A stretch of 64,000 bases of DNA from Cellulosimicrobium protaetiae. Its GTDB lineage: Bacteria; Actinomycetota; Actinomycetes; Actinomycetales; Cellulomonadaceae. A program made the translations under genes and the position numbers. The notes beneath the pieces were generated by a model. It had not been told where the DNA came from. It saw only the letters and a program-made list of their open reading frames with translations, and did not search any database. Positions 40,297 to 61,300 of this stretch are shown piece after piece. The number at the start of each line of letters is the position of its first letter. Position 1 is the first letter of the stretch. Location of the stretch: assembly GCF_009708005.2 (NCBI RefSeq), contig NZ_CP052757.1:3968001-4032000 (forward strand). Direction: 5' to 3'.

Positions 40297-42873
40297 TCAG
40301 CCGCAGTCGAGCGCGTCGACCGCCACGTCGCGCGTGGTGGTGACCGCGGCGCCGTCGAGCGTGGCCATACCGGTCACGGTCGCGGTCCCGGCCGGGACCG
40401 CCGTCGCGCGGGCGGCGAACGACTGGTACGCGTTCCTGCCCGGCGCGACGTCGGCGAACGCCTTCTCGCCGTACGGCGTCGTGAGCGTCACGGTGACGGG
40501 GACGTCCTCGCCGTTCGTGGCGCGGACCGCGACGTACGCCTTGCCCGCGAGGCAGCGCGAGGTCGCCTCGACCGCCAGGTCGAGCTCGGGCGCGGGCGGC
40601 TGCTCCCCGTACGCCGCGAGGAGCGCGGCGTGCTCGGCGGCCGTGATGGGCAGGACGGTGCCGTGGCGCGGACTGCTCGGCAGGTGGGCGTCGACCGACG
40701 TCCACACGCCCGAGTCGAGGTCGGTGGACTCGAGCGGCAGATAGCCCTGCCCGCCGTGGTAGCTCGGCTGGTCGACGAAGAGGTACCACTTCTCCTCGGT
40801 GTTCGACTTGAACACGGTCGGTCCCTCGCCCGCGGTCAGCGTGCCGCCCCACGGGTTGGGCTGGCCGTAGCCGATCTTCTCGGCGACGAGGTCCCAGTCG
40901 GTCGAACGCAGGTCGGTCGACCTCTCGAGGCGCGGGATCATGTACGCCTCGTCCTTGGTGAACCGGTAGTACGTGCCCTCGTGCTCGACGATCGACGAGT
41001 CGATCATCCCGAGCCCGTTGCCGCGCTTCTCGTCGATCCACACCTGCGGCTCGGAGAACGTCACGAAGTCCCGCGTGGTCGCGTACATCATGCGCTGGTA
41101 GGAGTCGGCGATGCGGCGACCGTCGGTCGAGGTGGTCGGGTAGAGCGCGGAGGCCCAGTAGACGATGTACTCGCCGCGCTGCGCGTCCCAGAACGCCTCG
41201 GGCGCCCACGTGTTGCCCGCGTACGCGCTCGACACCGTGACCATGCGCTGGTCGGACCAGTGCACCAGGTCGGTCGACTCCCAGATCATCAGGGCGCGCG
41301 ACCCGCGCTCCTGCGCGTTGCCGAAGTTGTTGCCTCCGTAGATGCGCAGGTCGGTCGCGAGGAGGAAGAACCGGTCGCCCTCGGGCGAGCGGATGATGAA
41401 CGGGTCGCGCAGGCCCTTCTCGCCGAGCGTCGACGTGAGCACGGGCTCGCCGTCGTTCAGCTCGACCCAGTCGAGCGGGTCGTTCCCGTCGCTCGCGCTG
41501 AAGTAGACCGACTCGCCGTCCGCGGTGCTCTCGCCCTCGAAGTACGGGAAGAAGTAGCCCTCGTAGTCGGCCTCGGCGGGCAGCGGCCGGACCGTGGCGT
41601 CGTACGTGTGCGTCGCGGTAGCGCCTTCCTTGGTCGCGGTCGCGGTGAGCTGCACGACGGCGGCCGGCTCGCCGTGGGCGGGCCGCGTCACCTCGCCCGT
41701 GGCCGAGACGGTCGCTGGGTCGGAGCTCGCCCAGGCGAGGGTCGAGCCGTTGGCGCCGCCGGTGGGCAGCGTGAGGTTGCCGCGGACGTCGTCGAGGTGC
41801 GGCACGACGACGTGGCTCGCGTCCCACGCGACGGCCTCGGCGGGCGCGAGGTGCGCGAGGACCGTGACGTCGAGCTGCGCGGTGCGCGCGACGGCGCCGC
41901 GCGTGACGAGCGCGGTGAGCGTCACGGTCGCGTCGTCCTCGCCCGCGGCGGGCCGGGTGACCTTCCCCGCGGCGCTGACGACACCCGCGTCGGACGACGT
42001 CCACGTGACGAGAGACCCCTGCGCGCCCGTGGTGGGCAGCACGAGGTCCGCGGTGACCGCGCTCGTGTCGCCGAGGTCGAGCGCGGCGAGGTCGGCGTCC
42101 GCGGCGGCCGTGGAGGTCCCGGCGGCGAGCTCGCCCGCCTCCGCCGCGGTGAGCGCGCGGTCGTAGAGGCGGAAGTCGCGCACCTGGCCCTTGAGGTAGC
42201 GGTCGCCGGAGTAGAGGGAGCGGCCGACGTAGTTCGCGGTCGTCTGCCCGCCGCCGATCTGGCCGGGGTCGGTCGTGACGTTCGTGGCCTGCTTGACCTG
42301 CACGCCGTCCTCGTAGAGCGTCGCGGTCGTGCCGGTGAGCGTGTAGGTGAGGGTCTTCCAGACGCCGCGCTGCAGGTTGGAGCCCTTGGTCACCGTCTGC
42401 TCGGTGGACCAGTTCCCCGTCGCGATCGACGTGCGGTACGCGTTGCCGGTCGTGAACAGGTAGCCGTTGCCGTTCGAGCCGCTCGTGTTCCCGAGCCCGT
42501 AGACGAAGTACGGCGTGCCCTGGTCCTGGCTCACGAGCACGTCGAGGCTCACGGTGACGTCCGTGAGCCCGGCGAGCAGGTGGTCGGGCAGGTCGACGTA
42601 GTCGTCCGTGCCGTCCAGCGTCGTGCCGTCGGCCGTCGCCGTGCCGCCCACCAGGGTGGCCGGGCCGAACGACGAGCCCTCGGCGACGTTCGCCGTCGTG
42701 CCGCCGGTCGTTCTCGCGGCGTCGAGCGGGTACCACGCGACGAGCCCCTCGTCGGTGGGCCCGCCGACGTCTGCGGCCGCTGGTGCGGCGACCGCGGCGG
42801 CGAGCGTGGAGACGGCGAGCGCCCCCACCAGCCCGGCGGCGAGCGCCGAGCGTCCTCGGTGTGTCGACATCAT
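40297..42873 (-). CDS. Secreted GH43-type glycosidase with LamG and Ig-like domains
   Basis: An 858-residue exported enzyme predicted to act on arabinan or xylan side chains. Order: signal peptide (1-35), LamG jelly-roll (about 41-250), two Ig-like domains (about 258-430), a five-bladed GH43-like catalytic domain (about 435-755), and the shared C-terminal module (762-858, RCLAGK...DCG). Candidate catalytic residues are D490 (LRDPFII), D625 (GMIDSSI) and E683 (AGEGPTVF). It follows the double-GH43 gene on the same strand, and its catalytic and LamG domains closely resemble those of that protein. The ATG at 42873 or the adjacent codon could start it. Confidence 0.85.
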   Translation of the reverse strand: MMSTHRGRSALAAGLVGALAVSTLAAAVAAPAAADVGGPTDEGLVAWYPLDAARTTGGTTANVAEGSSFGPATLVGGTATADGTTLDGTDDYVDLPDHLLAGLTDVTVSLDVLVSQDQGTPYFVYGLGNTSGSNGNGYLFTTGNAYRTSIATGNWSTEQTVTKGSNLQRGVWKTLTYTLTGTTATLYEDGVQVKQATNVTTDPGQIGGGQTTANYVGRSLYSGDRYLKGQVRDFRLYDRALTAAEAGELAAGTSTAAADADLAALDLGDTSAVTADLVLPTTGAQGSLVTWTSSDAGVVSAAGKVTRPAAGEDDATVTLTALVTRGAVARTAQLDVTVLAHLAPAEAVAWDASHVVVPHLDDVRGNLTLPTGGANGSTLAWASSDPATVSATGEVTRPAHGEPAAVVQLTATATKEGATATHTYDATVRPLPAEADYEGYFFPYFEGESTADGESVYFSASDGNDPLDWVELNDGEPVLTSTLGEKGLRDPFIIRSPEGDRFFLLATDLRIYGGNNFGNAQERGSRALMIWESTDLVHWSDQRMVTVSSAYAGNTWAPEAFWDAQRGEYIVYWASALYPTTSTDGRRIADSYQRMMYATTRDFVTFSEPQVWIDEKRGNGLGMIDSSIVEHEGTYYRFTKDEAYMIPRLERSTDLRSTDWDLVAEKIGYGQPNPWGGTLTAGEGPTVFKSNTEEKWYLFVDQPSYHGGQGYLPLESTDLDSGVWTSVDAHLPSSPRHGTVLPITAAEHAALLAAYGEQPPAPELDLAVEATSRCLAGKAYVAVRATNGEDVPVTVTLTTPYGEKAFADVAPGRNAYQSFAARATAVPAGTATVTGMATLDGAAVTTTRDVAVDALDCG

Positions 42874-42904
42874 GTCGTCCTCTCTTCGTCGAGATGCAGG
42901 TCGT

Positions 42905-42980
42905 GCCGCGAGATAGAACCCGCGGTCGCGAGGTAGAGCTCCGGGAGCTCTACCTCGCGACCTGCGGCTCTACCTCGGCG
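42905..42980. repeat. Palindromic element related to the 21-bp array
   Basis: Two GAGRTAGA units face two inverted units. The core CGCGAGGTAGAGCTC (42927-42941) and its perfect reverse complement (42945-42959) flank a CGG loop. It lies directly after the stop codon of the double-GH43 gene and could terminate or process its transcript. Confidence 0.85.
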
Positions 42981-42986
42981 GGGTCG

Positions 42987-45900
42987 TCAGCCGCAGGTGT
43001 CGGCGTCGTAGGTGACGTCGTAGGGCGTGGTGACCGGGGCGCCGTCGAGCACGGCCGTGCCGGTGACCGTCACCGTGCCGGCCGGGACCGACGTCGCGCG
43101 GGTCGCGAACGACTGGTACGCGTTCGCCCCCGGGGCCACGGCCGCGAACGTCTTCGTGCCGTACGGGGTCGTGAGGGTGACGTCGGCGGGCACGTCGCCC
43201 GCGTTGGTCGCCCGGACCGCGACGTAGACCTTGCCCGCGAGGCAGCGCGGGGTGGCCTCGACGGTCAGCTCCACCCGGGGCGTGGGGGCCACGTCGACCG
43301 GGTCCACACTCTCGAGCGTCGGCACGACCTCCTGGATGAGGCCGTCGTCGCCGAACGTCAGGCGGTCGATCGTCGTCTCGCGGTGGGTCCCGTCGCCACC
43401 GGGGATCGCGAACCGGTGGTACGCGATGTACCAGTCGTCCGTGCCCTCGACGTTGAGGATCGAGCTGTGCCCGGTCCCGAGGATGCCCTGCGAGGCGTCC
43501 TTCTCGAGGATCACGCCGCGGTACGTCCACGGGCCGTCGATGCTGTCCGACGTCGCGTAGCCGACGCGGTAGTTCTCCGACCCCGTGTCGTCGATCGAGT
43601 ACGTGAGGTGGTAGACGCCGTCCCGGTAGTTGAGGAACAGGCCCTCGCGGAAGTCGGTCAGGCCGGGGATGCGCCGGAGCGTGTCCTGCTTGATCGACGT
43701 CATGTCGTCGTTCAGCTCCGCCATGACCGGGCCGTTCGACGGGCCGCCGTTGCCCCACAGGAGCCAGAACTTGCCGGTCTCCGGGTCACGGAACGCGGCG
43801 GGGTCGATCGCCTGGCCGGACGTGACCGCCTCGCCGTTGGTGATCATCGCCGTCGGCTGCGCCATGAACGGGCCCTCGGGGCTGTCGGCCACCGCGACGC
43901 CGATCGTCTTGCGGTTGTACGTCGGGTTGTGGCCGGAGAAGTAGAAGTAGTACTTCCCGTCCCGCTCGATGATGGTGGGCGCCCACGCGTTGCCGGTCGC
44001 CCAGGGGACGTTCCCGTTCGTGCCGTCGAGCGTGAGGAACGGCTGCTCCGAGCGCTCCCACGTCACGAGGTCGGTGGACTTCCAGACGTAGAAGTCCTTG
44101 CCGCCCCAGCCCGGCGTGCCGTCGGTCGTGGCATAGAGGTAGAACGTGTCGCCGAACTGCGCGATGTTCGGGTCCGCGTACGTCCCGGGGAGCACCGGGC
44201 TGCCCATCTGCTTGGCCTGGACCGTCCACGTGCGCGACGACCCGTCCGGCCCGGTCACGGTGTACTCCACGGGCTGCGTGAAGTCCTGCACCGAGCCGTT
44301 CCCGGGCGTGACCGTCGCGCGCGGCGAGACCGTGAGGACCGGCGCGAGCGCGGAGACGTCCGTGCCCGGCTCGACGGCGAGCGTCACGGTCGAGCTCGCC
44401 CCGTCGACGATCGCCGGGACCTTGAGCGCGTCGAGCTCGGCTCCCGTGACGGCCGTGTGGTCGGCCCCGACCTGGTAGACCTCGTCCGCCGTGAGCGCGC
44501 GGTCGTAGATCCGGAAGTCGCGCACCGAGCCCTTGAGGTAGCGGTCGCCCGAGTACAGCGAGCGGCCGAGGTAGTTGGCGAGCGTCGAGCCGTCGCCGAT
44601 GTCCTTCGGGTCGATCGTGACGCCGGTCTGGCGGCCCACCTCGACGCCGTCCTCGTAGAGCACGGCGGTCGTGCCGGACAGCGTGTACGTGAGGTGCTTC
44701 CACACCCCGCGCTGCAGGTTCGCGTTCTTGGTGACGGTCTGCTCGGTCGTCCAGTTCCCCGTCGCGATCGACGTGCGGTACGCGTTGCCCGTGGTGAACA
44801 GGTACCCGTTGCCCGCCGTGCCGCTCGTGTTGCCGAGGCCGTAGACGAAGTACGGCGTCGCCTGGTCGGTCGCGACCTTGACGTCGAGCCCGACCGTGAC
44901 GTCGGTCAGCCCAGCGAGCAGGTGGTCGGGCAGGTCGACGTAGTCGTTCGTCCCGTCGAGCGTCACACCCTCGCCGGTCCCGGAGAACGCCGCACCGTTG
45001 GTCAGCGTCGCGGGCCCGAACGACGACCCCGGCGCGGTGTTCGCCGCCGACGTCCCGCTCGTCTCGTCGAGCGCGTACCGCACGACCAGGCCCGGGATCT
45101 CGGTGGTCACCTCGACCGCGACGTACGCCGTGTGCGACCCGTCGGCCGTGGTCGCGGTGACCATCGCGTGGCCCTCGCCGACGCCGGTGACGACGCCGTC
45201 GGCCGAGACCGTGGCGACGCCCGCGTCGTCCGACGCCCACCTGATCGCGCGCGCCGTCGCGTTGGCGGGCGTCACCGTCGCGCTGAGCTGCCGCGTCCCG
45301 CCGACGCCCACCTGGAGCGACTCGGGGGTGACGCTCAGTCCCTCGACAGGGACGACGTCGTCGGTCACCGTGACGACCGCGCGGGCGCGGACGCTCACGC
45401 CGCCGCCGAGGGACCCGGCGACCTCGAACGACCCCGCCTGCGCGTACGACGCCGGGTCGACCGCGTCCCACGTGACGTCGGCCGGGCCGGTGGAGCCGTC
45501 GGCGTAGTGCGCGGTGACGGAGGCGGGAAGCACGGGCGCGGAGCCCGTCTGCACCGTGACCGCGACGTCCTCGACGGACTCGACGAACGCGTCGGGCTGG
45601 TACGTGCTGAGCAGGCGGTCGTACTCGGCCTGCGTGACCGGGAGCACCGTGCCGTGGCGCGGGCGCGACGGCATCTGGTAGTCGGTGGACATGGTCCACT
45701 CGGCCGCGTCGAGCGAGGTCGACTCGAACGGCACGTAGCCGCGGCCGCCGAACTCGTCGATGAAGAGGTACCACTTCTCCTCGGTGTTCGACTTGAAGAT
45801 CGTCGGGCCCTCGCCCTGGTTGATCCCGCCGCCGAGCGAGTTCGCCTTGCCGATGCAGTCGGTGATGAAGTCGTAGTCCGTCGAGCGCAGCTCAGCGGCC

Positions 45901-47924: not shown

Positions 47925-47987
47925 CGGTGACTCCTCGTCGTCGTGCCCGGCGGCAGCGCCGGTCGCACGTCCGCCGTCGGACGCGCG

Positions 47988-48015
47988 TGTGAACGCTAAC
48001 ATGTGAGCGCAAACA
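47988..48015. promoter_or_regulatory. Two abutting LacI-type operators
   Basis: TGTGAACGCTAACA (47988-48001) and TGTGAGCGCAAACA (48002-48015) are 14-base sites of the pattern TGTGARCGNNNACA. They lie 64-91 bases upstream of the double-GH43 start codon. The same pattern occurs before the GH51 gene. LacI-family regulators of sugar genes bind such sites; no lacI gene is in the window. Confidence 0.7.
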
Positions 48016-48045
48016 TAGCGAGGGTCGAAGGCGACCCACTCCGCC

Positions 48046-48064
48046 GAAACCGTTATCGAGTTTC
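48046..48064. promoter_or_regulatory. GAAAC/GTTTC inverted repeat
   Basis: GAAAC (48046-48050) and GTTTC (48060-48064) flank nine bases, upstream of the paired LacI-type sites. It may be a second operator of a different regulator; the call is weak. Confidence 0.3.
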
Positions 48065-48125
48065 CGCGGTGTCCGGGCCGGCACGTCCCGGCACCTGGAC
48101 ACTCCCGCGGGTCTGCCCGACCACC

Positions 48126-48183
48126 GATGCGCTTCCGATCGAGCGATGCGCGCAGACGTGCATCGCTCGATCGGAAGCGCATC
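48126..48183 (-). terminator. Very long perfect hairpin after the 48.3-kb GH43 gene
   Basis: Arms of 24 bases (48126-48149 and 48160-48183) are perfect reverse complements around a 10-base loop. It begins about 100 bases past the stop codon of the upstream minus-strand gene and separates it from the next operon's promoter. Confidence 0.7.
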
Positions 48184-48282
48184 ACTCGACGCACAGAGGG
48201 GCATCCAGCGGCAGAGCGGGCCGGCGTCCGCGACGCCGACCCGCTCACGGGACGTCCGGGCGCGACGTGCGCCCGTCCGCCC

Positions 48283-50700
48283 TCAGCCCCCGCAGGCGAG
48301 CGCGTCGAACGCGATCTCGTACGGCGTGCTGACGTCGGCGCCGTCGACCGGCGCCGTGCCGGTGACGGTCGCGACCCCGGCCGCGAGCGACGTGGACCGG
48401 GCCGCGAACGACTGGTACGCGCTCGCACCCGGCGCGACGTCGCTCACGACGCGCGTCCCGAACGGCGTCGCGAGCGTGACGTCGACCGGGACGTCGCCCG
48501 GGTTCGTCGCACGCACCGCCACGTAGGCCTTGCCCGCGAGGCAGCGTGCGGACGCGGTGACGTCGAGCTCGACGACCGGGCCGGCGGCGTCGGCCGCGAA
48601 CTCCCACGTGTCCACCTCGACGAGGTCGACGCCCGCGGGGCCGGCGAACGTGAAGTACACGTCGTGGACGCCGCTCACGCCCTCGAGGGCGGCGGTCACG
48701 TCCGCCCACTCGCCGACGGGGGTGTCGAGGTCGAGCGTCCCGACGACGGCACCCTCGCGGTCGTCGAGGCGCACCTCGACGGTCGCGCCGTCGACGAGCG
48801 GCTTGACGCGCGCCGTGACGCTCGCGGCACCGTCGCCGAAGTCGACCGACGACAGCGCCGACCAGTCGCCGGCGTCGACGTCGCGGACGACGAGGTTCGG
48901 CGCCTGGGCGCCGAACTGCGCCGAGCCGCCGTCGACCTTCGCCGTGGTGAGCCCCTGCTGCCAGGCGAAGGTCTCGGCCTCGAGCACCTGGAACGGGTCG
49001 AGGTCCTTGACCTGGTCCACGCCCGCGTAGTCGCCCACGACCTGCTGGACCGTGCCGTCCGCGTTGAACGTCAGCTCCTGGATGTGCGGGCTGCGGTAGC
49101 CCTGCGTGGTGCTGCCGTTGATGCGCTTGTTGAGCGTGGGCGCGTGGTACGTGAAGTAGTACTTGCCGTCCAGCTCGAACACCGACTGGTGGTTGTTGCC
49201 GCCGGTGCCCGCGCCGAAGAACTGCGACTGGTTCGGGAACATCACGCCGGCGTAGGTTTCCTTGGGGAACGACATCGGGTCGTCGGAGATCATGTAGCCG
49301 ATCTGCCCGCCGCCCGGGTACCCCGGGAGCGTGGCCTGGTTGCCGCCGAAGTCGTTGCCGCCGAAGTGCGACGAGTACGACAGGTAGTACTTGCCCTCGC
49401 GCTCGAAGACCTGCGCCGCCTCGAACGCCACGGGCGCGTCCACGACGGCCGCGGTCCCCTGCGTCGAGACCATGTCGTCGCCGAGCTCGATGACGCGGAT
49501 GTTCTTCGGGTTGTTGAACCGCTCCGCCGCGGGCATCGACGTCGACGCCGGGCCGCCGCCGAAGTAGAGGTATGCGCCGTCGTCGGTGACGAGCGGCGCC
49601 GGGTCGAACTTCCAGGCCACGGCCTCGGCGCCCGGGGTGCGCCCGTCGATGAGCGTGCTGTCGCGCTCGCTCGTCCACGGTCCGAGCGGCGAGGTGCCCG
49701 TGATGACGTTCGACGACCCGCCGCCGTTGGCGTAGTAGAGGAAGTACTTGTCGACGCCGTCGACCGTCTTCTTCGCCATGCCCGGCGCCCACGAGTTGTT
49801 CGTGAAGGGCGCGACGCCCTGCGGCCCCGCGACCTGGATCTCGCCGTGGTCCGTCCAGTTCACGAGGTCCTCGGACGAGATGAGCGTGATCTGGTTGATG
49901 CTGCCGTAGTTGATCTGCGGCGAGACGCCCGTCACCGGGTCGGGCGCGTAGCCCTGGGTGTCGTTCGTCATGTACATGTACACGCGACCGTCCTCGACGA
50001 ACCCGAACCCGTCGGCCCCGAACTTGTGGGAGATGAGCGGGTTGTGCTCGCCGGGCACCTTGCCGAGCACCTCGATCGTCTTCGAGGGCGGTCCGGGTGG
50101 GGCCGCGCCGACGACGGAGACGTCGTCGAGCACGAAGTCCATGAGGTGCGTCGCCGGGTCGGCGGACGGGTTGCTCGTCCACGGCGTCTCGAAGAACAGC
50201 CGCGCGGTGCCGACGTTCTGGTCGGCCGGGATCGTGAACCGGCCGTCGAACGTCGCCCACTGGCCCTTGGTCGCGGTGACGCTCACCAGGTTGGTGTACG
50301 ACCCGCCGCCGTAGTGCATCGTGGCGAAGAACTGCTTGGTGGCCGGGGCCGCGGCGGCGTCGTACCGGATCCTCGCGGTGAGCTCGTACGTCTCGCCCGC
50401 GCGGACCTTGCCGCTGAGGTCCTGCATCGGACCGGAGCCGGTCGTCGCACGCTCGGTGGTCAGGGCTGCGGCCGCGCCCGCGAACGCCTGGTCGGTGGTC
50501 GACAGCACGGCCTTGTCGGTCGCGTTGCCGTTGTTGACGAACCAGCCGGTCGTGCCGTCCTCGAAGCCGCCGTTGACGACCAGCTCCTCGTCCGCGGCGT
50601 ACGACGGCAGCGCGGCGAGCGACGCGGAGAGCAGCGTCGCGAGCGCGGCCCCGGCGACGGCGCCGCGCAGGCGACGTCGTCTGCGGTGGTGCGTGTCCAT
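48283..50700 (-). CDS. Secreted GH43 glycosidase with CBM4/9-like and CBM6-like domains
   Basis: An 805-residue exported enzyme. Order: signal peptide (1-35), a CBM4_9-type sandwich (about 38-198; LVVNGGFEDGTTGWF opening), GH43 catalytic domain (about 207-560; GEHNPLISHKFGADGFGF, D366 in WKFDPAPL, E427 in VAFEAAQVFE), CBM6-like domain (about 568-702; FQVLEAETFAW), and the shared C-terminal module (709-805, RCLAGK...ACGG). It is likely a beta-xylosidase or alpha-arabinofuranosidase; sequence does not decide which. The ATG at 50700 is preceded by GAGGAGG. It follows the 965-residue GH43 gene and ends at the long hairpin. Confidence 0.88.
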   Translation of the reverse strand: MDTHHRRRRRLRGAVAGAALATLLSASLAALPSYAADEELVVNGGFEDGTTGWFVNNGNATDKAVLSTTDQAFAGAAAALTTERATTGSGPMQDLSGKVRAGETYELTARIRYDAAAAPATKQFFATMHYGGGSYTNLVSVTATKGQWATFDGRFTIPADQNVGTARLFFETPWTSNPSADPATHLMDFVLDDVSVVGAAPPGPPSKTIEVLGKVPGEHNPLISHKFGADGFGFVEDGRVYMYMTNDTQGYAPDPVTGVSPQINYGSINQITLISSEDLVNWTDHGEIQVAGPQGVAPFTNNSWAPGMAKKTVDGVDKYFLYYANGGGSSNVITGTSPLGPWTSERDSTLIDGRTPGAEAVAWKFDPAPLVTDDGAYLYFGGGPASTSMPAAERFNNPKNIRVIELGDDMVSTQGTAAVVDAPVAFEAAQVFEREGKYYLSYSSHFGGNDFGGNQATLPGYPGGGQIGYMISDDPMSFPKETYAGVMFPNQSQFFGAGTGGNNHQSVFELDGKYYFTYHAPTLNKRINGSTTQGYRSPHIQELTFNADGTVQQVVGDYAGVDQVKDLDPFQVLEAETFAWQQGLTTAKVDGGSAQFGAQAPNLVVRDVDAGDWSALSSVDFGDGAASVTARVKPLVDGATVEVRLDDREGAVVGTLDLDTPVGEWADVTAALEGVSGVHDVYFTFAGPAGVDLVEVDTWEFAADAAGPVVELDVTASARCLAGKAYVAVRATNPGDVPVDVTLATPFGTRVVSDVAPGASAYQSFAARSTSLAAGVATVTGTAPVDGADVSTPYEIAFDALACGG

Positions 50701-50733
50701 GGATCCTCCTCGATCGATGTGGGTGTCCTGCGC

Positions 50734-50754: not shown

Positions 50755-50821
50755 GGTCGTGCCGACGGCGGGGTCGCGCCGTCGTCCTGCGCCCTCCTCT
50801 CGTCCGGGACCGGCGGCTTGG

Positions 50822-53719
50822 TCAGCCGCCGTACGCGACCGTGCGGGTCGCGGTCGACCCGTCGGTCGAGCGGGTGACCGAGACCGTCACCTCGCCCGCC
50901 GGGACGCTCGTGAGGCGGCTCGCGAAGGCCTGGTACGCGTTGCGGCCCGGCTCGACGTCGGCGAACGACCGGCTGCCGTACGGCGTGGTGACGACGACGT
51001 CCACGGGCACGTCCTCGGCGTTCGTCACGCGCACGGCGACGTAGTCCTTCCCCGCCAGGGCGCGCACGCTCGCCTCGACCGTGAAATCGACCTCGGCGGC
51101 GTCGGCCCGCACGAGGGACGCGACGGCGAGCGCGAGCGCCCGCGCGGGTGCGTCCGCCTCGTTCTGCGTCGACGGCGCGGTCGTGGCCCGTGCCGACGCG
51201 AGCCCCTTCGCGACGGCGGACCACGACTCGACCGTGTAGTCCGCCGGCTCGAGCCCCTCGGCCTCGGCGACGACGGCGTCGAGCGCGGAGCGGTCGGCGC
51301 CGCCGTCGGCGTCAAGCACGTCGCTGAGGAGGAAGTGGTCGAAGTCCACGTGCCCGCCGGTCCGCTCCTTGGCGTAGGAGAAGAGGCCGAACCGGTAGCC
51401 CATGAAGTGGGAGAGGCTCCAGTCCATGACGAGCGGCCCCTGACGTGCACCGAGCGGCTGCCAGGTCCGCCCGTCGAGGCTGTACGAGTACTGCACCCAG
51501 AGCTGGCCGTTCGGCGAGGCGAAGTCCGCGTCCGCCTTGAGGTGCACGTCCGTCCGCTCGCCCAGCGGGACCTGCGACCCGGGGACGAACGACTCGACCG
51601 CCTCGCGGTCGATCGTGTCGGTGAACGGCTGGAGCCGGGTGACCAGACCGAGCGTGCGCTCGCCGTCGACCTGCTGGACGCCCGCGTACGCGAAGCTGCG
51701 CCCGTAGACGGCGAGGCCGGCGACGTCGCCGTCGAGCATGCCGGAGACGTCGAGCCTCGTCTGGGCCGACGACGTCGGGCCGAACGTGCGCTGACCGAGG
51801 GTGTTGCGCGCCTCCTCGAGATACGTGAGGTCGCGTCCGGGCGCCTTCGTGTACTCCGCCTCGCCGGTCACGACGTGCCCGTTGGTCAGGCGCAGCCAGC
51901 CCTCGCGCTCGGTGAGCGACCAGTACCGGTTGTCCGGCGCGTGGTTCCACTGCCACGCGAGGTCGAGGTCCGAGCCGTTGTACGACACCTCCTCGAGCGT
52001 GGGTGTCTCGACGTCCGGCGCGCGGCCGACCACGGAGACGTCGTCGAGCAGGTACTCGACGCTCGACGACGGCGGCTGCGGGTTGCCCCACGGCGTCTCG
52101 ACCGCGAGCTTGAAGGTCCGGACGTCCGCGTCCTGCGGGACGGTGTAGGTGCCCCGCACGGTCGTCCACTCCCCCGGCGTGGCGTTCGCCCACGCGAGCG
52201 TGGTGACGCCCGCGCCCCAGTCCCCGACGAGGTTGAAGCGGACCTGCGCGGGCCCGGAGGCGTAGCGGACCCGGGCCGAGACCTCGTAGGTCGCGCCCGC
52301 CTGGATCTTCCCGCCGAGCTGCTGGTTCGGCCCGGAGCCGTTGAGCGTCCGGCCCGCGACGCGCAGCGCGCCCGTGCCCGACGCGGCGCCGCTCGTCTCG
52401 CGCGACAGCGTCGCGCCGAACTGCGCAGCCCAGGGCGCGGTCCCGGCGTCCTCGAACCCGGGGTTGGCGACGATCTCGACGCCGAGCAGCGACTCGTCGT
52501 ACGTCGGCGCCTCGGGGACCTCCCAGACGGTGTCGCTGAACGCGCGGTGCTCGGCGTCGTTCGCGAAGTCGTCGGAGGCGACGATGCTCTTCAGCCGCTC
52601 CCGGCGCTCGGTCGCCGGGTCCAGCACGATCGGCTTGGCGAACGTGTCGCCGACGCGGACGGCGCCGTCGTCGCCGAACGTGGGCCAGCCGTCCTCCCAC
52701 GTCGCGGGGATGAGCGCGGGGATGCGGCCGAGCGGGTAGGTGTCGCGGAAGAACATCCCCCACCACGCGTAGCCGCCCGCGCCGTCGGGCACCTCGACCA
52801 GCCCGCCCTGGGCGAAGCCGTCGGAGTTCAGCGCGCTGCGCGCCTCGTACGGGTTCGACCCGTCGGCGGTCTCGTAGCGACCCAGCAGGTGCGGGGAGCG
52901 GAACAGCACCTCCTGCCGGTTCTGGCCGCTGGGCCAGGTGATGATCGCGACGTAGTACTCGCCGTCGATGTAGTGCACCTGCGCGCCCTCGAACAGCCCG
53001 CCGACGAACGGCTCGCCCGCGTAGTCCACGGCGCGGAAGATGTTCGGGAAGTCCGCCTCGATCGCGGTGAGGTCGTCGTTCAGCCGGACGGCGCTCGTCG
53101 CGCCCGAGCCGTAGAAGATGTAGGGCGTCCCCCCGTCGGCCTCGTCGAAGAACAGCGACGGGTCGTGGAACCCCCGGCCGAGCGCCGTGCGCTCCCACGC
53201 GCCGTGCTCGACGTCGTCCGTGCGGAAGAGGTACGACCCCCCGAGGTCGTTGGTGTTGAACACCACGTAGAACGTGCCGTCGCGGTAGCGCAGCGAGGAC
53301 GCCCACTGCCCGTTGCCGTAGCCGTTCTTCCCGTTGCGCAGCGACGACACGTCGCCGACGCCGAGCCGGTCGTAGACGTAGCCGACGATCTCCCAGCTCA
53401 CGAGGTCGTACGACTTCATGATCGGCGCACCCGGGGCGAGGTGCATCGTCGTGCTGATCATGTAGTAGAGGTCGCGGCCCTCGTCGTTCTCGGCCGCGGG
53501 GACGCGCGTGACGCTGATGTCCGGGACGTCGCTGCGCAGGAGCGGGACGTCGTACGTCCCGTCGCCGCGGTCGGTCGTGGTGAGGCCGGTGAGGGCGCTC
53601 GCCGTCGGGGGCTCGCCGTCGGCCGTCGCGGTGGCGTGCGCCGCGGGCAGGCTCGCCCCGAGCGCCAGCACACCCGCCACGACCGCCGCCGCGGCTCGTC
53701 GTCTCCGATGTCTGCTCAT
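50822..53719 (-). CDS. Secreted GH43 glycosidase with inserted CBM4/9-like domain and FIVAR
   Basis: A 965-residue exported enzyme. Order: signal peptide (1-30), GH43 domain (about 50-380; D67 in SDVPDISV, D186 in FHDPSLF, E244 in GLFEGAQ), the start of a C-terminal beta-sandwich (about 385-410), a CBM4_9-like domain (about 413-565), the rest of the sandwich (575-800), a FIVAR-like helical segment (811-873), and the shared C-terminal module (876-965). This copy of the module lacks both conserved cysteines (RALAGK, and an end VAYGG). The arrangement is most like GH43 beta-xylosidase/arabinofuranosidases. GAGGAGG precedes the ATG. Confidence 0.87.
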   Translation of the reverse strand: MSRHRRRRAAAAVVAGVLALGASLPAAHATATADGEPPTASALTGLTTTDRGDGTYDVPLLRSDVPDISVTRVPAAENDEGRDLYYMISTTMHLAPGAPIMKSYDLVSWEIVGYVYDRLGVGDVSSLRNGKNGYGNGQWASSLRYRDGTFYVVFNTNDLGGSYLFRTDDVEHGAWERTALGRGFHDPSLFFDEADGGTPYIFYGSGATSAVRLNDDLTAIEADFPNIFRAVDYAGEPFVGGLFEGAQVHYIDGEYYVAIITWPSGQNRQEVLFRSPHLLGRYETADGSNPYEARSALNSDGFAQGGLVEVPDGAGGYAWWGMFFRDTYPLGRIPALIPATWEDGWPTFGDDGAVRVGDTFAKPIVLDPATERRERLKSIVASDDFANDAEHRAFSDTVWEVPEAPTYDESLLGVEIVANPGFEDAGTAPWAAQFGATLSRETSGAASGTGALRVAGRTLNGSGPNQQLGGKIQAGATYEVSARVRYASGPAQVRFNLVGDWGAGVTTLAWANATPGEWTTVRGTYTVPQDADVRTFKLAVETPWGNPQPPSSSVEYLLDDVSVVGRAPDVETPTLEEVSYNGSDLDLAWQWNHAPDNRYWSLTEREGWLRLTNGHVVTGEAEYTKAPGRDLTYLEEARNTLGQRTFGPTSSAQTRLDVSGMLDGDVAGLAVYGRSFAYAGVQQVDGERTLGLVTRLQPFTDTIDREAVESFVPGSQVPLGERTDVHLKADADFASPNGQLWVQYSYSLDGRTWQPLGARQGPLVMDWSLSHFMGYRFGLFSYAKERTGGHVDFDHFLLSDVLDADGGADRSALDAVVAEAEGLEPADYTVESWSAVAKGLASARATTAPSTQNEADAPARALALAVASLVRADAAEVDFTVEASVRALAGKDYVAVRVTNAEDVPVDVVVTTPYGSRSFADVEPGRNAYQAFASRLTSVPAGEVTVSVTRSTDGSTATRTVAYGG

Positions 53720-53770
53720 GTTCTTCCTCCTCGTCGAGGTCCTGCCGTCGTGGGCTTCATCTGGGGGATA

Positions 53771-53792
53771 TCGATGTCGGTACCGATATCGA
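53771..53792. promoter_or_regulatory. Near-perfect 22-bp palindrome upstream of a GH43 gene
   Basis: The site centres on CGGTACCG and is flanked by TCGAT and ATCGA arms, with GATATC just outside. It lies 52-73 bases upstream of the GH43 start codon and is unlike the TGTGARCG sites, so a different regulator is likely. Confidence 0.5.
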
Positions 53793-53873
53793 CGGACACC
53801 GCGTCGCTGCCGTGCGGCGTCCCCGCGGCCCGTCGGACCGACCGCGAGGACGCCCGTGCGGCGCGCGGGTCGC

Positions 53874-56800
53874 TCAGCCGCAGGTGCGCGGCTCGATGTC
53901 GACGTCGTAGGTGGTGGTGGCGTGGTCGCCGTCGAGCACCGCCGTCGCGGAGACCGTCGCGGTGCCGGCGGGGACCGTCGTCGCGCGCGACGCGAACGAC
54001 TGGTACGCGTTCGCGCCCGGGGCGACGGCAGTGGACGACCTCTCCCCGTACGGCGTCGTCAGGGTGACGTCCACGGGGGTGACGCCCGTGTTCGTCGCCC
54101 GGACCGCCACGTAGGCCTTGCCGGCGAGGCAGCGCGACGAGACCTCGACGTCGAGCGGGACGACGGCCGTCGTCCCCGGCACGATCTCGACCCGGTAGGT
54201 CGTGGCCGTCTCGTGGTCCTGCGCGACGCCGACGACCTCCACGGTCCGCCCCGACCCGTCCGCCGGGAGCGGCACGACGCGATCCTGCGTGTCGTCGACC
54301 AGCACGCCGTCGACGCGCACGAGACCGCTCGGCACGTGGGGGTCGGCGTCGAGCACGACGCTCGTCGTGCCCGCGGACACGGTGAGCGTGTAGTCGGTGA
54401 CGGCCGGGTTGAACGCGGGTGCGAGCGCGCCCGTGTCGAACGCGAGCGCCGCGAGCCCGGGCGTCGCGTCGTACGACGCCGCGCGGTCGACCCGGACGCC
54501 GAACACGCCTCCGGCCCAGCCGCCCGTCGCCTGGAAGCGCACGGTGACCACGGGGATGCGCGCGCCGTCCTCGTCGAGCACGTACTCGCCCGCGCTGTCG
54601 ACCTTCCAGCGCGTGCCGTCGCCGATCTCGAGGTACTTCGCCGGGAGCTGCGTCGTGTCGACGTAGAACCCCTGCTCGTCCTTGGTCGGCGCGTTCGCGA
54701 CCGTGGTGATCGTCTTCAGCCTCTCGTCGTTGACGTACACGTCGAACACGCGGCCCTGGTCGCCCGAGTAGAGGGTGACGCCCAGGTGGTTCGAGGCCGA
54801 CGCCGGGTCGACCATGAGGTCGTAGCTGAACCAGCCCGTGCCGTTCGCGTGGCGGAACTGACGGCCGGAGAACGTCCCGACCGACGACCCGCTCTGCTTG
54901 AGGTTCTTCGCGTTCTCGAAGTTGTTGTTGTCGAAGCTCGTGAGGCTGTCGACGGTGCGGTCGGCGTCGCGCAGCTCCTGCTTGGCGCGCAGGATGCGCT
55001 CCTGCGACGCGGCCGAGTCCGGCTCGTCGAGGTGGAGGTACAGCCCGTACGTCACGTCCCAGTTGGTGTGGTGGGGCGTGAAGACGAGGTCGCCGCCGTC
55101 GGCGGTGTTCCGCAGCTCGAGCTGCACCCGGCCCTCGGCGTCGTCCTCGACCCGCACGAGGTTCTCGGCGATGCGCTCCTTCCACTCGTCGGCGCCCATG
55201 TTCGCCGCCGTGATGGTCGTCTGCGCGTCGGCGTCGCGCGTGGCGGAGCGGACGAGGATGCCCGTGCCCTGCCACGCCGGCTCGGGGACCTCGCCGAGGT
55301 TCGCGGAGAGGACGACCGGCCCGTACCGGAAGGCCACGAAGTACGGGTTGTCCGGGGTGTCGACGACGGACGCCGCCATCGGCATCGTGTACCGGACGAC
55401 GTCGCCCGCGGCGACGGGCAGCACGACGTACCCGCGCGACACGACCGGCTCGACGGCGGCGCCGTTCACCTCGACCGCGGGCTCGCCCGCGATCCACGAC
55501 GGCACGCGCAGGCGCAGCGTCGCGTCCTGCGCGACCGCCCCGCCGTCGAGCGCGTCGACGCGGAAGGTCACGGTGTCCTCGTTCGGCAGGTTCGCCTCCT
55601 GCGTGAGCCGCAGGTTCTGCTCGCCGTGCTCGACCGTCGAGGAGAAGAACAGGTTGACCCACACCGAGCCCTGGCCGGTGAAGTACATCGAGTCGCCGAG
55701 CTTGGAGAAGTTCTCCATGCCCGTGCCGGTGCAGCACCAGAACTCGGTGAACGGCAGGTTGTAGACGCGGTGGTAGCCCGACGCCATGGGGTTGAAGTAC
55801 GTCGTCGTCCCGGTCTCCGGGTTCTGCGACGCGAGGATCGTGTTGATGAACGCGTTCTCGTAGTAGTCCGCGTACCGCACGTCCTTGCTGAGCTTGAACA
55901 GCTCGCGCGCGAGCTTGAGCATGTTGTACTCGTTGCACGTCTCTGCCGTCTCGGCGTTGCGCGCGGTGCCCTGCTCGTCGGCGCGCTCGTGCAGCGACCC
56001 GGGCGCGTGGAAGTGCTCCGCCTGGCTGTTCGCACCGGTGACGTACGTGTGGTCGCGCACGACGATGTCGAAGAAGTTCTCCGCCGCCGCGAGGTACATC
56101 GGCAGCTCCTCCTTCTCCGCCGGCGTGAGCAGCGCGTAGTACTCCGGGTTCTGCGTGAACACCCGGTAGCGCTTGAGCGCCCCGAGCAGCTTGGGGATCT
56201 GCGTGTTGGCGTGCTTGCCTGGCAGCACGTCCTGGCCCGCGGCGAGCTGGCGGAAGAACGCGACCTCGTCGAACGCCTCGGCGGCCTCCTTGATGCGCAC
56301 GTCGCCCGTGAGGTCGAACAGCTCGTACAGCGCCTCGTTCATGCCGCCGTACTCGGTGCGCAGCATGACGTCGGTGCTCGGCAGCTTCGCCACGCGCCCC
56401 TGCACGTAGAGCCCGAAGTCGGTCGCGACGGCGAGCGCCTGGTCCCCGACGGGGCCGTCGACGTACTCGGCGACGTCGAGCAGCCCGGCGAGCACCTTGT
56501 GCAGGTTGTACCAGGGCACGATGACGTTCTCGTCCGACGTCCCGGTGCCCTGCACCTGGTCGAGGATCGACTCGCGGAACGCGGAGACGTATCCGGCCGA
56601 GCCGGGGTGCGCGGCGGCGTACGCGTCCTGCACGCGGGCGAGCCCTCCGACGCCCTCCTCGATCTCGGTGAACAGCGCGTCCTTCGTCGCCTCGTCCGGC
56701 GTCGAGGACCAGGACATCGCGAGCGCCGAGAGGTAGTGCCCGAACGCGTGCCCGCGGAAGTTCACGGCGTTGCTGCGCTCCCAGCCGCCGTACCCGGCGG

Positions 56801-58052
56801 AGGTGGTCGGGGTGAGCCCGCCGACCTTGTAGAACTCGTAGAGGAACGTCTCGGAGTCGAGGCTCAGCAGGTACTCGTGCTCCTTCGCCGCGGCGTTCTG
56901 GAGGAAGTCGTCGGAGAGCAGCACGGACGGCAGCGCGGTCTCCTCGAGCGGCGTCTCGTCGACGAGGGCGGGCACGACGACCTCGAGGTCGCGCGTCACC
57001 GGCTCCCCGTCGAGGTACCGCACCGTCGCCGTGAGCGTGACGTGCGCGTCGTCCTCCCCGATCGCCGGCCGAACCACGGTCCCGTCGGTCGCGACGACCT
57101 CGGGATGCGACGACCGCCACGTCACGGTCGAGCCGCGCGATCCCGTCGTCGGCAGCACGAGCGCGACGGTCGCGCGCTCGGGCAGCGACAGCGCGTCGGC
57201 GTCGTCCTGGGCGATCGCGTCGCGGTCCACCGTGCGCCCGCTCTCCTCGTAGAGCCCGACCACGTCGCCCAGGTCCGCGACGGCGTCGTACAGGCGGTAG
57301 TCGTCGAGGGCGGCCTTGAGGTAGGCGCCGTTGTACTGCGGACCGTTGAACCCGATCGTCTTGGGCAGGGCCGGGTCGGAGCCGAGCACGCCCGTCGCGT
57401 CGCCGGCGACCGCGTTGGCCACCGTGGACGGGACCTTCTCGCCGTTGCGGTAGAACGCGACGTCCTTCGTCGCGCGGTCGTACGTGACGACGACGTGCGT
57501 CCACTCGTCCGCGGGGAAGAACGCCGCGCGGTCGGAGCTCGCGACCCGCACCTTGTACGGCTGGCCCGACGCCGGGCCCACCGACAGCGCGAGCGGCACC
57601 GTGTCCGACTCGGACGAGAGGTACCAGCCGTCGGAGTTGTAGGCCCGCTTGTTCCAGGTGATGACGTGCTCGCCGGACAGCTTCCCGCTGGGCTCCACCC
57701 AGAACGAGAGCGTGAGGTCCTCGGGCTGCAGCGCGGCCGACGACCCGAGGTCGAGGTACGTGCTCCCGGCGAGGCGAAGCGCCTGCCCCCCGGCGTCGAC
57801 GCCCTCGACGTACGAGTAGCCCGTGGGCGCGGTCCCGTTGTGGCCCTTCAACGTCACCGGGTCGTCGAGCGGGCCGGCGTCACTGACGTCGCCCTCGAAC
57901 CCGAGGTCGAGGACCGGGTCGGGCAGGGCGTCGGCCGCGACGGCGGACGGCGCCCAGGTGGTCAGGGCGAGCGCGGCGGCGGCCGCCACGGCGGCCAGCC
58001 GGGTCGCGCCGCCGGGTCGACGGCGGGCGCCGTCGGTCGGTCGGGGGTGCAT
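53874..58052 (-). CDS. Secreted GH127 beta-L-arabinofuranosidase
   Basis: A 1392-residue exported enzyme. Order: signal peptide (1-40), LamG-like (about 45-270), Ig-like (280-362), GH127 catalytic domain (about 366-905), accessory beta domains (about 905-1190), cadherin-like domain (1195-1290), and the shared C-terminal module (1298-1392). The zinc-cysteine active site known from bifidobacterial HypBA1 is conserved: AETCNEYN (E704, C706), FWCCTG (C773, C774), and a candidate acid E679 in NSQAEHF. It should release beta-linked L-arabinofuranose, as found on hydroxyproline-rich plant proteins. The ATG at 58052 follows GAGGAG. It lies downstream of the GH51 gene. Confidence 0.9.
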   Translation of the reverse strand: MHPRPTDGARRRPGGATRLAAVAAAAALALTTWAPSAVAADALPDPVLDLGFEGDVSDAGPLDDPVTLKGHNGTAPTGYSYVEGVDAGGQALRLAGSTYLDLGSSAALQPEDLTLSFWVEPSGKLSGEHVITWNKRAYNSDGWYLSSESDTVPLALSVGPASGQPYKVRVASSDRAAFFPADEWTHVVVTYDRATKDVAFYRNGEKVPSTVANAVAGDATGVLGSDPALPKTIGFNGPQYNGAYLKAALDDYRLYDAVADLGDVVGLYEESGRTVDRDAIAQDDADALSLPERATVALVLPTTGSRGSTVTWRSSHPEVVATDGTVVRPAIGEDDAHVTLTATVRYLDGEPVTRDLEVVVPALVDETPLEETALPSVLLSDDFLQNAAAKEHEYLLSLDSETFLYEFYKVGGLTPTTSAGYGGWERSNAVNFRGHAFGHYLSALAMSWSSTPDEATKDALFTEIEEGVGGLARVQDAYAAAHPGSAGYVSAFRESILDQVQGTGTSDENVIVPWYNLHKVLAGLLDVAEYVDGPVGDQALAVATDFGLYVQGRVAKLPSTDVMLRTEYGGMNEALYELFDLTGDVRIKEAAEAFDEVAFFRQLAAGQDVLPGKHANTQIPKLLGALKRYRVFTQNPEYYALLTPAEKEELPMYLAAAENFFDIVVRDHTYVTGANSQAEHFHAPGSLHERADEQGTARNAETAETCNEYNMLKLARELFKLSKDVRYADYYENAFINTILASQNPETGTTTYFNPMASGYHRVYNLPFTEFWCCTGTGMENFSKLGDSMYFTGQGSVWVNLFFSSTVEHGEQNLRLTQEANLPNEDTVTFRVDALDGGAVAQDATLRLRVPSWIAGEPAVEVNGAAVEPVVSRGYVVLPVAAGDVVRYTMPMAASVVDTPDNPYFVAFRYGPVVLSANLGEVPEPAWQGTGILVRSATRDADAQTTITAANMGADEWKERIAENLVRVEDDAEGRVQLELRNTADGGDLVFTPHHTNWDVTYGLYLHLDEPDSAASQERILRAKQELRDADRTVDSLTSFDNNNFENAKNLKQSGSSVGTFSGRQFRHANGTGWFSYDLMVDPASASNHLGVTLYSGDQGRVFDVYVNDERLKTITTVANAPTKDEQGFYVDTTQLPAKYLEIGDGTRWKVDSAGEYVLDEDGARIPVVTVRFQATGGWAGGVFGVRVDRAASYDATPGLAALAFDTGALAPAFNPAVTDYTLTVSAGTTSVVLDADPHVPSGLVRVDGVLVDDTQDRVVPLPADGSGRTVEVVGVAQDHETATTYRVEIVPGTTAVVPLDVEVSSRCLAGKAYVAVRATNTGVTPVDVTLTTPYGERSSTAVAPGANAYQSFASRATTVPAGTATVSATAVLDGDHATTTYDVDIEPRTCG

Positions 58053-58224
58053 CGTTGCTCCTCAAGGTCGCGCGCGGGCGCCGTCGCCCGGGCGTCAGGA
58101 CGTGCCGTGTCGTGCAGCTCGTCGCGCGACGACGTCGTCGCGCGGTCGTGCGAGGCGGCCCGCGCACGACGCGCGGGCCGCGCCCTCGTGGCCCGCCGGA
58201 CCGGCCACGAGGGAAGCAGGCTCT

Positions 58225-58295
58225 CGCGAGGGAGATCCCGCGGTCGCGAGGTAGAGCCCGGGGGCTTCTACCTCGCGACCTGCGGTTCTACCTCG
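58225..58295. repeat. Palindromic element related to the 21-bp array
   Basis: CGCGAGGTAGA (58245-58255) pairs with TCTACCTCGCG (58267-58277), extended by GCCC/GGGC with one bulged base; outer units repeat the motif on both sides. It resembles the 42905-42980 element over its whole length and also follows a hydrolase stop codon (GH51). Confidence 0.85.
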
Positions 58296-58302
58296 GCATC
58301 GT

Positions 58303-61300
58303 TCAGCCGCAGTCGAGCGCGTCGTAGGCGACGTCGACGGTCGAGGTGACCTGCTCGCCGTCGAGCGTCGCCGTGCCCGTCACCGTCGCGACGGCCGCCG
58401 GGGCCGACGTCGCGCGTGCCGCGAACGACTGGTACGCGTTCTTGCCCGGCGCCACCTCCGCGAACGCCTTCTGCCCGAACGGCGTCGCGAGCGTCACCGA
58501 GACCGGGACGTCCTCGCCGTTCGTCGCGCGCACGGCGACGTACGCCTTGCCCGCGAGGCAGCGCGGCGAGGCCTCGACCGCGAGGTCGAGCTCGGGTGCC
58601 GCGTCGGACGCGTGCAGCCGGACGAACGTGATCGAGTGCGCGGGGAACTCGTAGGAGAACTCCTCCCCCACGCCCGTCAGCGTCCGCTCGACCGGGACGA
58701 CCCGCTCGGGGTCGGCCTTGGTGTTGGTGTCCGACGGCGCGCCCACCATCTCCGTGACCGTCGCCTCGGACGCGATGCCCTCAGCACCCTCGACGTGCAC
58801 CTGCGTGCGCGCCGCGGTCGCGGTAGGGTTGACGACCTTGACGACGACGTCGCCCGTGTCGTCGTCGCGCGTGACGACCTGGTAGAGCGACTTGGTCGAC
58901 GGCTGCTCGTAGGACATCTGGAGCTCGCCGTCGAGGTAGAGCTCGATGGTCGAGCCCTCGACGACGACCTTGACGTGGTACGGCTGGCCGGCCTCGATGC
59001 TGTGGTTCTCGACCGCCTTCACCTCGTTGGCGCTCCCGCCCGACGCGCGCTGGAGCGCCTGGCGGGTGTTGTTCCACCCGCCGAGGTTCCACCAGTAGTA
59101 GTCGTTCGGGCCGCCGGCGGCGAAGCCGACGAGGAAGCCCTCGGCGCCGGACGTCTTGCGCGCGTCGAGCTCGAGCGTGTAGCTCGACCAGTCCTTCGCG
59201 TACGCGCCGGCCACGATCGACCGGGCGTCGGTGACGTTCGTCGCCGACTGCACGTAGGCGCCGTCCTGCGCGGCCCACGTCCCGGTCTGGGGCTCCCACT
59301 GCGACGCACCGGACTCGAAGTCGTCCGAGAAGAGCACGTCGCCGCTCGCGTTGTCGGTCACGCGCACGTTGTCGTACTGCGCGGCCGTGTTCCACGTCGA
59401 GAGGAAGACGCCCCCGTCGAGCGTCGCGTCGGCCGGCGCCGGGCCGGAGTGCGTGCTGGGCACGACCTCGTCCCCCGCGTTCGCCGAGAACAGCTGCTGG
59501 ACGTAGTAGTTCACCGAGCCCCACGACTCGTCGTTGTCGAACCAGATCGCGTCGGGCGACCACTGGACGTACGACTCGTTCGCGAGCAGCGGCGCGTACG
59601 ACGCGAGCCGCACGACGTCGGAGTTGCGCTCCAGGCCGGTCATGAACGCGGCCTCCGACAGCGCGTTGGCGAACGTGTTGCCGCGCGACGCGTACTCGCC
59701 GAGGAACACGTGCGGCCCCTCGCGGTCGTAGGAGTCGTAGCGCTCGTCGTTCTCGAGGAACCACTGCGGGTCGTTGTAGTAGTGCTCGTCGACGAGGTCG
59801 ACGTCCTGCTCGCGGTTGAACTCCCAGAGCTCGTCGAAGCGCTGGCCCGTGTCGTCCGGACCGGAGTTCGAGATGATCTGGATGTCCGGGTAGGCGGCCG
59901 CGATCGCGTCGCGGAACGCCGGGAAGTTGGCCTCGAACGTCTTGGTGTTCTCCTCGTTGCCGAGGCCGATGTACTTCAGGCCGAACGGCTCGGGGTGCCC
60001 GAGCCCGGCGCGCACGGCGCCCCACTCGGTCGTCACGTCGCCGTTGGCGAACTCGATGAGGTCGACCGTGTCGTCCACCCACCACTGGATCTGCGCGGGG
60101 TCCTTCATCTCGGGGATGGTGCTGCCGCAGCCGTTGGCTCCGACCGACACCACGGGCAGCGGCGTCGCGCCGAGGTCCTCGGCGAAGAGGAAGTACTCGA
60201 GGTACCCGATGCCGTACGACTGGTTGTAGCCCCAGAAGTTCCAGTTGGTCGCGCGCTCCTCGACCGGGCCGATCGTCTCCTTCCACTGGTACGTGCGGCG
60301 ACGGTCGGTGAAGTTCGACTCCTCGTAGGTGCGGAACGTGCCGACGTTCGTCACGCAGCCGCCGGGGAAGCGCAGGAACTGCGGGTCGAGCGCATCGATC
60401 TTCTCGGCGAGGTCCTTGCGGAGGACGGACGTCCCGTTGACCGGGCCGACCCACGTGTCCTGCGGGAAGAGCGACACCTGGTCGAGCGCGAGCGTGCCCG
60501 CGGCGCCCGAGAACAGCGCGAGGCGCCCGGCGTTCGTCGTACCGGTCGCGGTGAGCGTGACGTCGTACTTCTTCCACGCGTTCGAGCCGTCGACGGCCAC
60601 CTGTCCGGTCGCGTAGGCCGTGGTCCCGGCGTTGTCCTCGACGCGCACCGTGACCGACTGCGCCGTCGCCGACCGTGCCCAGACGGAGAAGTCGTACGAC
60701 TCCCCCTCCTCGACGAACAGGCCCGTGTTGTACCCGGCGTTGCGCACCCCGGCACCGGCGGCGGTCGTCGTGAGGTTGAGGTAGGTGCGGTTCGTCGCGT
60801 TGAGCCGCCCGGCGTCGTTCACGACCTGCGTCGTGGCCGTCGCGCCGCCCCGGTTCGCCGCGCTCCACGCGGTGAGGCCGTTGAACGACCCGTTGTCCTG
60901 GTTGGTGAACTCGAACGACCGGTTGCGCACGAGCTCGGCGTACAGGCCGCCGTCGGCCGCGTAGTTGATGTCCTCGTAGAAGATGCCGTAGAGCTCGTCG
61001 CTCATCTCGGTGCGCTCGCCGGCGAGGTCCACCGTGATCTCGTGGTCGGCGCTGGTGGCGGGCGTGATCGTGAGCTTCGTGGCCGCGTCGCGCGGGCCGA
61101 GGACGAGCGCGCCGTCGGACGCGCGCACGCCGGCGTACTGCTCGGGGTCGGCCGCGCTGCGCAGCCAGACCTTGCCGCCGCCGGCGTCGGTGAGCCGCAG
61201 CGCCGTGGCGTCCTCGCCCGCGGCCCCGAGGGAGAGCCGGGACGCGCCCGAGACCACGACGGGCCGGTCGTCGACGGCGAGCGTCACCGGGGACGTGCCC

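Follow-up and report, generated by a model that had tools for sequence, protein, structure and literature searches.

Introduction

Cellulosomal dockerins are small modules, one to an enzyme and usually C-terminal, that are carried by dozens of unrelated extracellular enzymes in a single genome. In Bacteroidota, many proteins secreted by the type IX secretion system (T9SS) end in an Ig-like C-terminal domain (CTD) of ~80-100 residues, of the TIGR04183 kind.

A large extracellular particle, the 'hemicellulosome', has been described for Cellulosimicrobium cellulans F16: it measures 20-65 nm by electron microscopy and about 18 MDa, is activated by calcium and was obtained from cell-free supernatant; 27 proteins were identified in it, and the accessible portion of the paper reports no cohesin or dockerin and leaves the interaction of the subunits unexplained (PMC4562250). 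According to the same portion, the key subunit M768_06655 consists of ThuA, GSDH, PKD, CBM6 and PKD domains and is full length inside the particle, and its 118 kDa forms (natural or generated with proteinase K), from which ~500 C-terminal residues are missing, are monomers outside it (PMC4562250). Here we analyse a window of 64,000 nt from Cellulosimicrobium protaetiae (NZ_CP052757.1, positions 3,968,001 to 4,032,000), in which six adjacent genes encode enzymes with a common C-terminal tail, and follow this tail through the genome, related genomes and the databases.

Results

The preliminary description of the window had placed the tail at the end of six hydrolases of the families GH43, GH127 and GH51. 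All six tails lie on the minus strand and each reaches a stop codon, and Pfam bears out the families: four belong to GH43 proteins, one with a GH43 domain (tail at 40300..40590, ORF 40297-42873), one with two of them (42990..43274, start of the protein taken at 47924), one GH43-CBM6 protein (48286..48576, ORF 48283-50700, with a CGG end) and one GH43-GH43_C2 protein (50825..51094, ORF 50822-53719); the fifth belongs to a GH127 protein (53877..54161, ORF 53874-58052) and the sixth to an alpha-L-arabinofuranosidase of the GH51 type, identified by ASD1_dom plus Alpha-L-AF_C (58306..58596, start taken at 62175). The other five tails are 62 to 81% identical to the 40.3-kb tail. The joint loss of two cysteines that had been pointed out earlier is also as described: five of the six tails contain both and the 50.8-kb tail contains neither, its carrier of 965 residues having zero cysteines in the whole protein. 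The 40.3-kb and 48.3-kb proteins contain exactly two cysteines each, both inside the tail.

When the whole genome was searched with one of the tails, 56 matches were returned (E up to 1e-3). Of these, 54 close 54 different proteins at the very C-terminus, one tail in each, and the remaining two lie inside one other protein, the 1763-residue frame L079. The module, which is ~95 residues long, spans the genome and extends beyond the six adjacent window genes. Across the 54 tails both cysteines are present in 49, neither in five and a single one in none, and in the 49 the last cysteine is 0-2 residues from the protein end. No second tail domain below an i-E of 1e-5 was found in 292 tail-bearing rows. 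A signal-peptide start was found in 49 of the 54 carriers by a crude scan; the signal peptides of L043 and L073 are plain by eye, and L057, L067 and L072 have candidates further along the frame. Judged by these putative export signals, most of the 54 tail proteins are likely to be secreted enzymes. The 152-kb second contig (G000:C2) holds its own cluster of three divergent tail proteins (L075-L077) of the RCVAG[KR]N type. L079 (L079:2444-7732) is a sigma-70-family (ECF-like) factor with a zinc finger, whose long, probably extracytoplasmic part contains divergent tail-like repeats and, judged by eye alone, a CBM5/12-like end (no Pfam CBM at E 0.01); L079-like matches in four sister genomes and in Oerskovia flava skip part of the repeat block.

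On the glycoside side, carriers outside the window include GH43, GH92, GH20, GH31, GH53, GH59 and GH97 proteins, a pullulanase and an NAGidase, the families being taken from two tallies of 44 and 34 families, of which the first 25 each were listed, so that not each of the 54 carriers is assigned. ThuA-GSDH proteins and 3-keto-disaccharide hydrolases also end in the tail, as do, among non-glycosidases, M28 and S8 peptidases, an ExeM-type nuclease/5'-nucleotidase, a purple acid phosphatase, PAP2, an esterase and an asparaginase; carriers in other strains add GH10 xylanase, GH26 and GH5-type proteins. A CBM6, CBM4_9 or CBM35 is already present in several carriers, and the GH92 carrier matched known mannosidases over the catalytic part only, not over the tail. 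As the catalytic parts of the carriers are unrelated, there is no common substrate. With respect to the roles proposed at the outset, a tag specific for one polysaccharide is unlikely because the enzyme range is broad, and a role in assembly gains outside support from the part of PMC4562250 that is accessible.

The tail is a real protein family that is undescribed and unnamed. Pfam (E up to 10) returned only weak matches of the six window tails to CBM_35, CFSR and DUF4680, CBM_35 being found in two of the six at E 0.05-0.07 and 14 bits against a cut-off of 28; for the 54 genome tails NCBIfam (E up to 1) listed 18 families, of which no model fits and none is of the T9SS kind. The first impression that the tail belongs to no named family thus holds for both Pfam and NCBIfam. 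In the literature, no match was found for three tail peptides and, among the papers listed, no title or abstract start on the tail, and the accessible part of PMC8325422 does not touch on it. AlphaFold2 predicts a seven-strand all-beta sandwich (pLDDT 98), which would place the tail among the Ig-like beta-sandwiches of the seven-strand Greek-key type, and both cysteines lie at the same pole of the model if it is read as a Greek key. A solved relative was sought by sequence and rejected: only de novo Ig designs (E 1e-4) were matched, with single stretches near or above E 1, which amounts to a match of the generic fold.

The cysteines were then counted in 274 distinct C-terminal tails from this genome, related genomes and the database (matches with an i-E up to 1e-5, identical strings merged; the two pieces of the frame-broken L180, the internal copy L098, which is the L137 gene, L080-L085 and L094 were left out). 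Both were present in 265, neither in nine and a single one in none, a count that is not a probability because the tail rows are related. In the 265 both occupy the same two columns; P0080 has both, the last one eight residues before its end. The best tree requires six changes, and just two independent pairs have the backing of well-supported branches, which is not enough for a sign test. The all-or-none pattern, together with the two window proteins that have no other cysteine, argues that the tail cysteines likely form an intramolecular disulfide. These same observations and the predicted seven-strand fold support the earlier proposal of a small beta-sandwich closed by a disulfide. Most of the nine cysteine-less tails retain a large part of the motif.

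Outside the two cysteine columns, conservation is highest at N24, F56, Y53, Y17, Q54, Y/F38, aromatic 89, K/R41, R59, G39, R10, T36 and K15. A weak alignment to designed Ig proteins, taken with strand alternation, suggests that positions 17, 19 and 21 and positions 53, 55 and 57 face outwards, and accordingly suggests that part of the conserved positions is at the surface. A conserved surface in carriers whose catalytic parts are unrelated would point to a common ligand. The net charge of the 54 tails of this genome is mostly acidic (median -3, range -10 to 3).

Within a set of 59 relatives, own genome included, all 17 Cellulosimicrobium genomes contained 27-64 tail matches, a few of which are repeats inside L079-like proteins. 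Twenty other genomes of the family comprised 14 without a match, five with 1-4 and one, O. flava (G026), with 36; Oerskovia enterophila has 32. Across 396 genomes of the phylum, with 12 candidates scored per genome, seven had a match including our own, and on rescoring G322 had 11 and G370 nine, mostly in one cluster each. A single tail copy occurs in G029, G033, G056, G057 and G397, and among the genomes searched more than 11 matches occur only in Cellulosimicrobium and Oerskovia. Named records with tails also come from Micromonospora, Microbispora (four of the tail proteins listed belong to Microbispora sp. CA-102843), Actinoplanes and others, and the nearest named tail proteins are those of Cellulosimicrobium. 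Spread by plasmids was considered and rejected: the one match in a plasmid collection is a Nonomuraea record of 11.8 Mb, which by its size is probably a chromosome. A record of Sphaerisporangium cinnabarinum ATCC 31213 (L176) and a yeast-labelled protein (P0154, Metschnikowia) resemble Cellulosimicrobium and are perhaps mislabelled or contaminated.

Three tail-bearing enzymes, the M28 peptidase, the nuclease/5'-nucleotidase and the ThuA protein L049, were traced into other genera. Among the eight of 12 M28 matches that were read, the tail is present in three same-genus genomes and in Oerskovia, and the relatives in four others (37-60% identity), whose genomes have no tail match, have only a short end. 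The nuclease/5'-nucleotidase (30 loci read, some partial) has the tail in three same-genus genomes and in G026; in G025 its nuclease (L149) and 5'-nucleotidase (L154) halves are separate genes ~3.5 kb apart, each with its own tail-like end, and in G033 (L137) an internal tail-like module is followed by two CBM5/12. Elsewhere the slot of this enzyme is filled by a CBM5/12 or weak CBM5/12-like end (G022, G029, G024, G018 and G036), by a CBM2 of ~100 residues in which a cysteine stands close to either end (G023) or, by eye, by sortase-type ends (G034, G030 and G019) and by Ig-like or other stretches (G017, G028, G031, G021, G032, G027 and G035). On ten nuclease ends Pfam found CBM5/12 clearly in four and below threshold in two, and CBM2 clearly in one; its LPXTG anchor model scored above the cut-off in G019 and below it in G034 and did not match G030, where PEP-CTERM was sub-threshold. 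For ThuA (46 loci found and 29 read, three of them partial) the tail is present in 12 of 12 records named Cellulosimicrobium (the frame of one is broken), in one Sphaerisporangium-named record and in four from Oerskovia; it is absent from five Isoptericola records and from Antribacter, Micromonospora, Phytoactinopolyspora and Microbacterium, the orthologue of Microbacterium halotolerans ending in an LPATG-helix-basic sequence. From these comparisons, complete enzymes appear to have acquired the module in one lineage; elsewhere the slot holds modules for attachment, other domains or nothing at all. The ThuA proteins of Isoptericola and Antribacter (L170, L171, L172, L175, L177 and L186) have a different, repeated end module that contains cysteine, and its last repeat also stops one or two residues past a cysteine. 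The idea of a parallel tail brand in Isoptericola was discarded: the repeat gives 1-3 matches per genome (G452-G454), all in one long frame.

The nearest tail in our genome is the orthologous one in 4/4 cases for M28 and in 13/13 for ThuA (together 17/17), and in 1/4 for the nuclease set, where the other three tails are 44-53% identical compared with 79-86% for the bodies (last 400 residues). In these sets, then, tails would mostly have been inherited with their enzyme and sometimes exchanged. The preliminary description had offered spread by recombination or retention for a common job; some of both is indicated, with inheritance in the M28 and ThuA sets and exchange in the nuclease set, and the M28 and ThuA sets do not support a spread by recombination alone.

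Discussion

Taking the first three readings considered here together, the tail is likely an attachment module of some kind. Among them we tentatively prefer that it is a common, dockerin-like docking tag by which the enzymes, themselves likely exported, would be held on a single extracellular partner that they share. The enzyme would be exported via its signal peptide and the tail would fold independently, its disulfide pinning the C-terminus against the first hairpin; the conserved pole and sheet face (R10, K15, Y17, Y/F38, K/R41, Y53, Q54 and R59) would bind the same putative partner for every enzyme, possibly a scaffold protein or else a polymer of the matrix; tailed enzymes would in this way join the C. 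cellulans F16 particle, and proteolysis upstream of the tail would free the enzyme. Arguments for such a tag are that the module is C-terminal, that its enzymes are so varied, that the cysteines occur as a pair or not at all, that among the genomes searched it is abundant only in two genera, and that the slot is empty or otherwise filled elsewhere. In a more specific form of this reading, which we regard as possible but speculative, the tail would do the work of dockerins in an aerobic extracellular enzyme assembly that has none: one Ig-like module, clamped by a disulfide and fitted secondarily to >50 Cellulosimicrobium and >30 Oerskovia exoenzymes, would plug all of them into a single scaffold or matrix, and this would account for the F16 particle.

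The link to that particle comes from L049, which has the same five domains in the order of M768_06655, its second PKD (~1091-1157) being followed by concanavalin-like stretches and then the tail. Cutting mature L049 to 118.4 kDa removes 518-525 residues, so that the tail lies in the part whose loss accompanies the monomeric enzyme. From its relatives, we infer that M768_06655 carries the tail; the protein cluster P0118, named after the F16 locus M768_11490, ends in it. Several points weigh against docking. The F16 particle may be an aggregate of polysaccharide or vesicles, and the ~500 residues lost from M768_06655, as described in the accessible portion of PMC4562250, include domains besides the tail. 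The modules in the slot of sister genera bind surface or substrate, not a scaffold; a multi-enzyme assembly is less plausible in the five genomes with a single copy; one tail copy is internal and followed by two CBM5/12 (L137); and our genome also holds a cohesin-dockerin pair. As an assembly rule the latter was rejected, there being one pair only in the genome. It is a two-gene pair (L044:4921-7589; G000:C1, ~2744157-2745163) in which a single-cohesin protein directly precedes a likely secreted dockerin-amidase protein, the former being of the wall-anchor type with a signal peptide, a cohesin and an LASTG-helix-basic end.

The closest competitor of the docking tag, which we hold to be somewhat unlikely, is a module for retention at the cell surface that binds a wall or exopolysaccharide polymer of the producer without a dedicated protein scaffold. 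The occurrence of the tail independent of enzyme type and its conserved basic and aromatic positions agree with retention, as do the orthologues that end in sortase-type signals, namely the nuclease in three genera and the LPATG-helix-basic ThuA of M. halotolerans; however, the M28 relatives of other genera have no evident anchor, the tails of our genome are mostly net acidic, and the F16 particle was purified away from cells, from a supernatant (accessible portion of PMC4562250).

That the tail is an unclassified CBM for external substrates is improbable. In its favour, glycoside hydrolases are frequent among the carriers, CBM5/12 or CBM2 stands in place of the tail in other genera, cysteines likewise lie close to both ends of the G023 CBM2, and two window tails show the weak similarity to CBM_35; against this, several carriers already have a CBM of their own, and asparaginase, phosphatases, peptidases and nuclease carry the tail, for which reason a substrate-specific CBM was not our first choice as a general answer. 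Quite improbable, too, is a cap for stability and protease resistance, in which the tail would be a disulfide-locked C-terminal plug without a ligand: the likely disulfide at the extreme C-terminus of a compact model and the generic enzyme range would suit a plug, but it would not need the conserved Y17, Y53, S55 and R59, which are expected to be exposed, and nine of 274 tails dispense with both cysteines, most of them keeping much of the motif.

In being C-terminal, one per protein, present in dozens per genome and lineage-restricted, the tail follows the pattern of known C-terminal sorting tags. A secretion or sorting signal recognised and cleaved during export is nonetheless very improbable, given that the tails have no transmembrane helix or basic end and are predicted to be a folded domain and that full-length M768_06655 is reported in the particle (PMC4562250, accessible portion), although the GH49 dextranase CeDex of Cellulosimicrobium sp. 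THN1 was isolated without its C-terminal part (PMC9691899, accessible portion). In the latter source, the 1065 aa of CeDex2365 are annotated with domains to residue 965, leaving ~100 unannotated C-terminal residues, which is the length of the tail (PMC9691899); a GH49 search of 17 genomes found none, and none was found in the controls either.

Should the tail prove to be a docking tag, it would provide the rule of assembly that a published multienzyme particle still lacks (PMC4562250, as far as accessible) and a small, disulfide-locked modular tag for enzyme assembly beyond the cohesin-dockerin systems of clostridia. Even with a wall polymer as ligand, an undescribed family would mark dozens of exoenzymes of the genus, whose location could be predicted and manipulated.

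Among known systems, the F16 particle is a large multi-enzyme particle of the same genus, with a subunit that has the L049 domain order and is a free monomer when truncated, but the accessible part of its description is silent on the tail, whose presence in the subunits is deduced from relatives. CBM2 and CBM5/12 are C-terminal binding modules in the same slot of sister genera, yet the six window tails match neither model, CBM_35 being the only CBM family model to respond, below threshold. LPXTG/LAXTG sortase signals (PF00746) likewise occupy this slot in orthologues of other genera; inspection of the 54 tails revealed no such motif, membrane helix or basic end. With the CTDs of T9SS the tail shares a predicted Ig-like C-terminal domain common to many likely secreted proteins; no model of that kind was among the 18 NCBIfam families listed for the 54 tails, and the host of the tail, unlike T9SS bacteria, has no outer membrane. 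A cellulosome would have a scaffoldin with several cohesins, and our genome has one dockerin and one cohesin in adjacent genes; we know of no matching scaffoldin for the tail. The six tails have no PF00404 match, no other Pfam match above its cut-off and no helical calcium-binding repeats, and their predicted all-beta disulfide sandwich differs from the paired calcium-binding helical repeats of dockerins (PF00404), with which the tail nevertheless has in common that it is one small C-terminal module on each of many unrelated enzymes.
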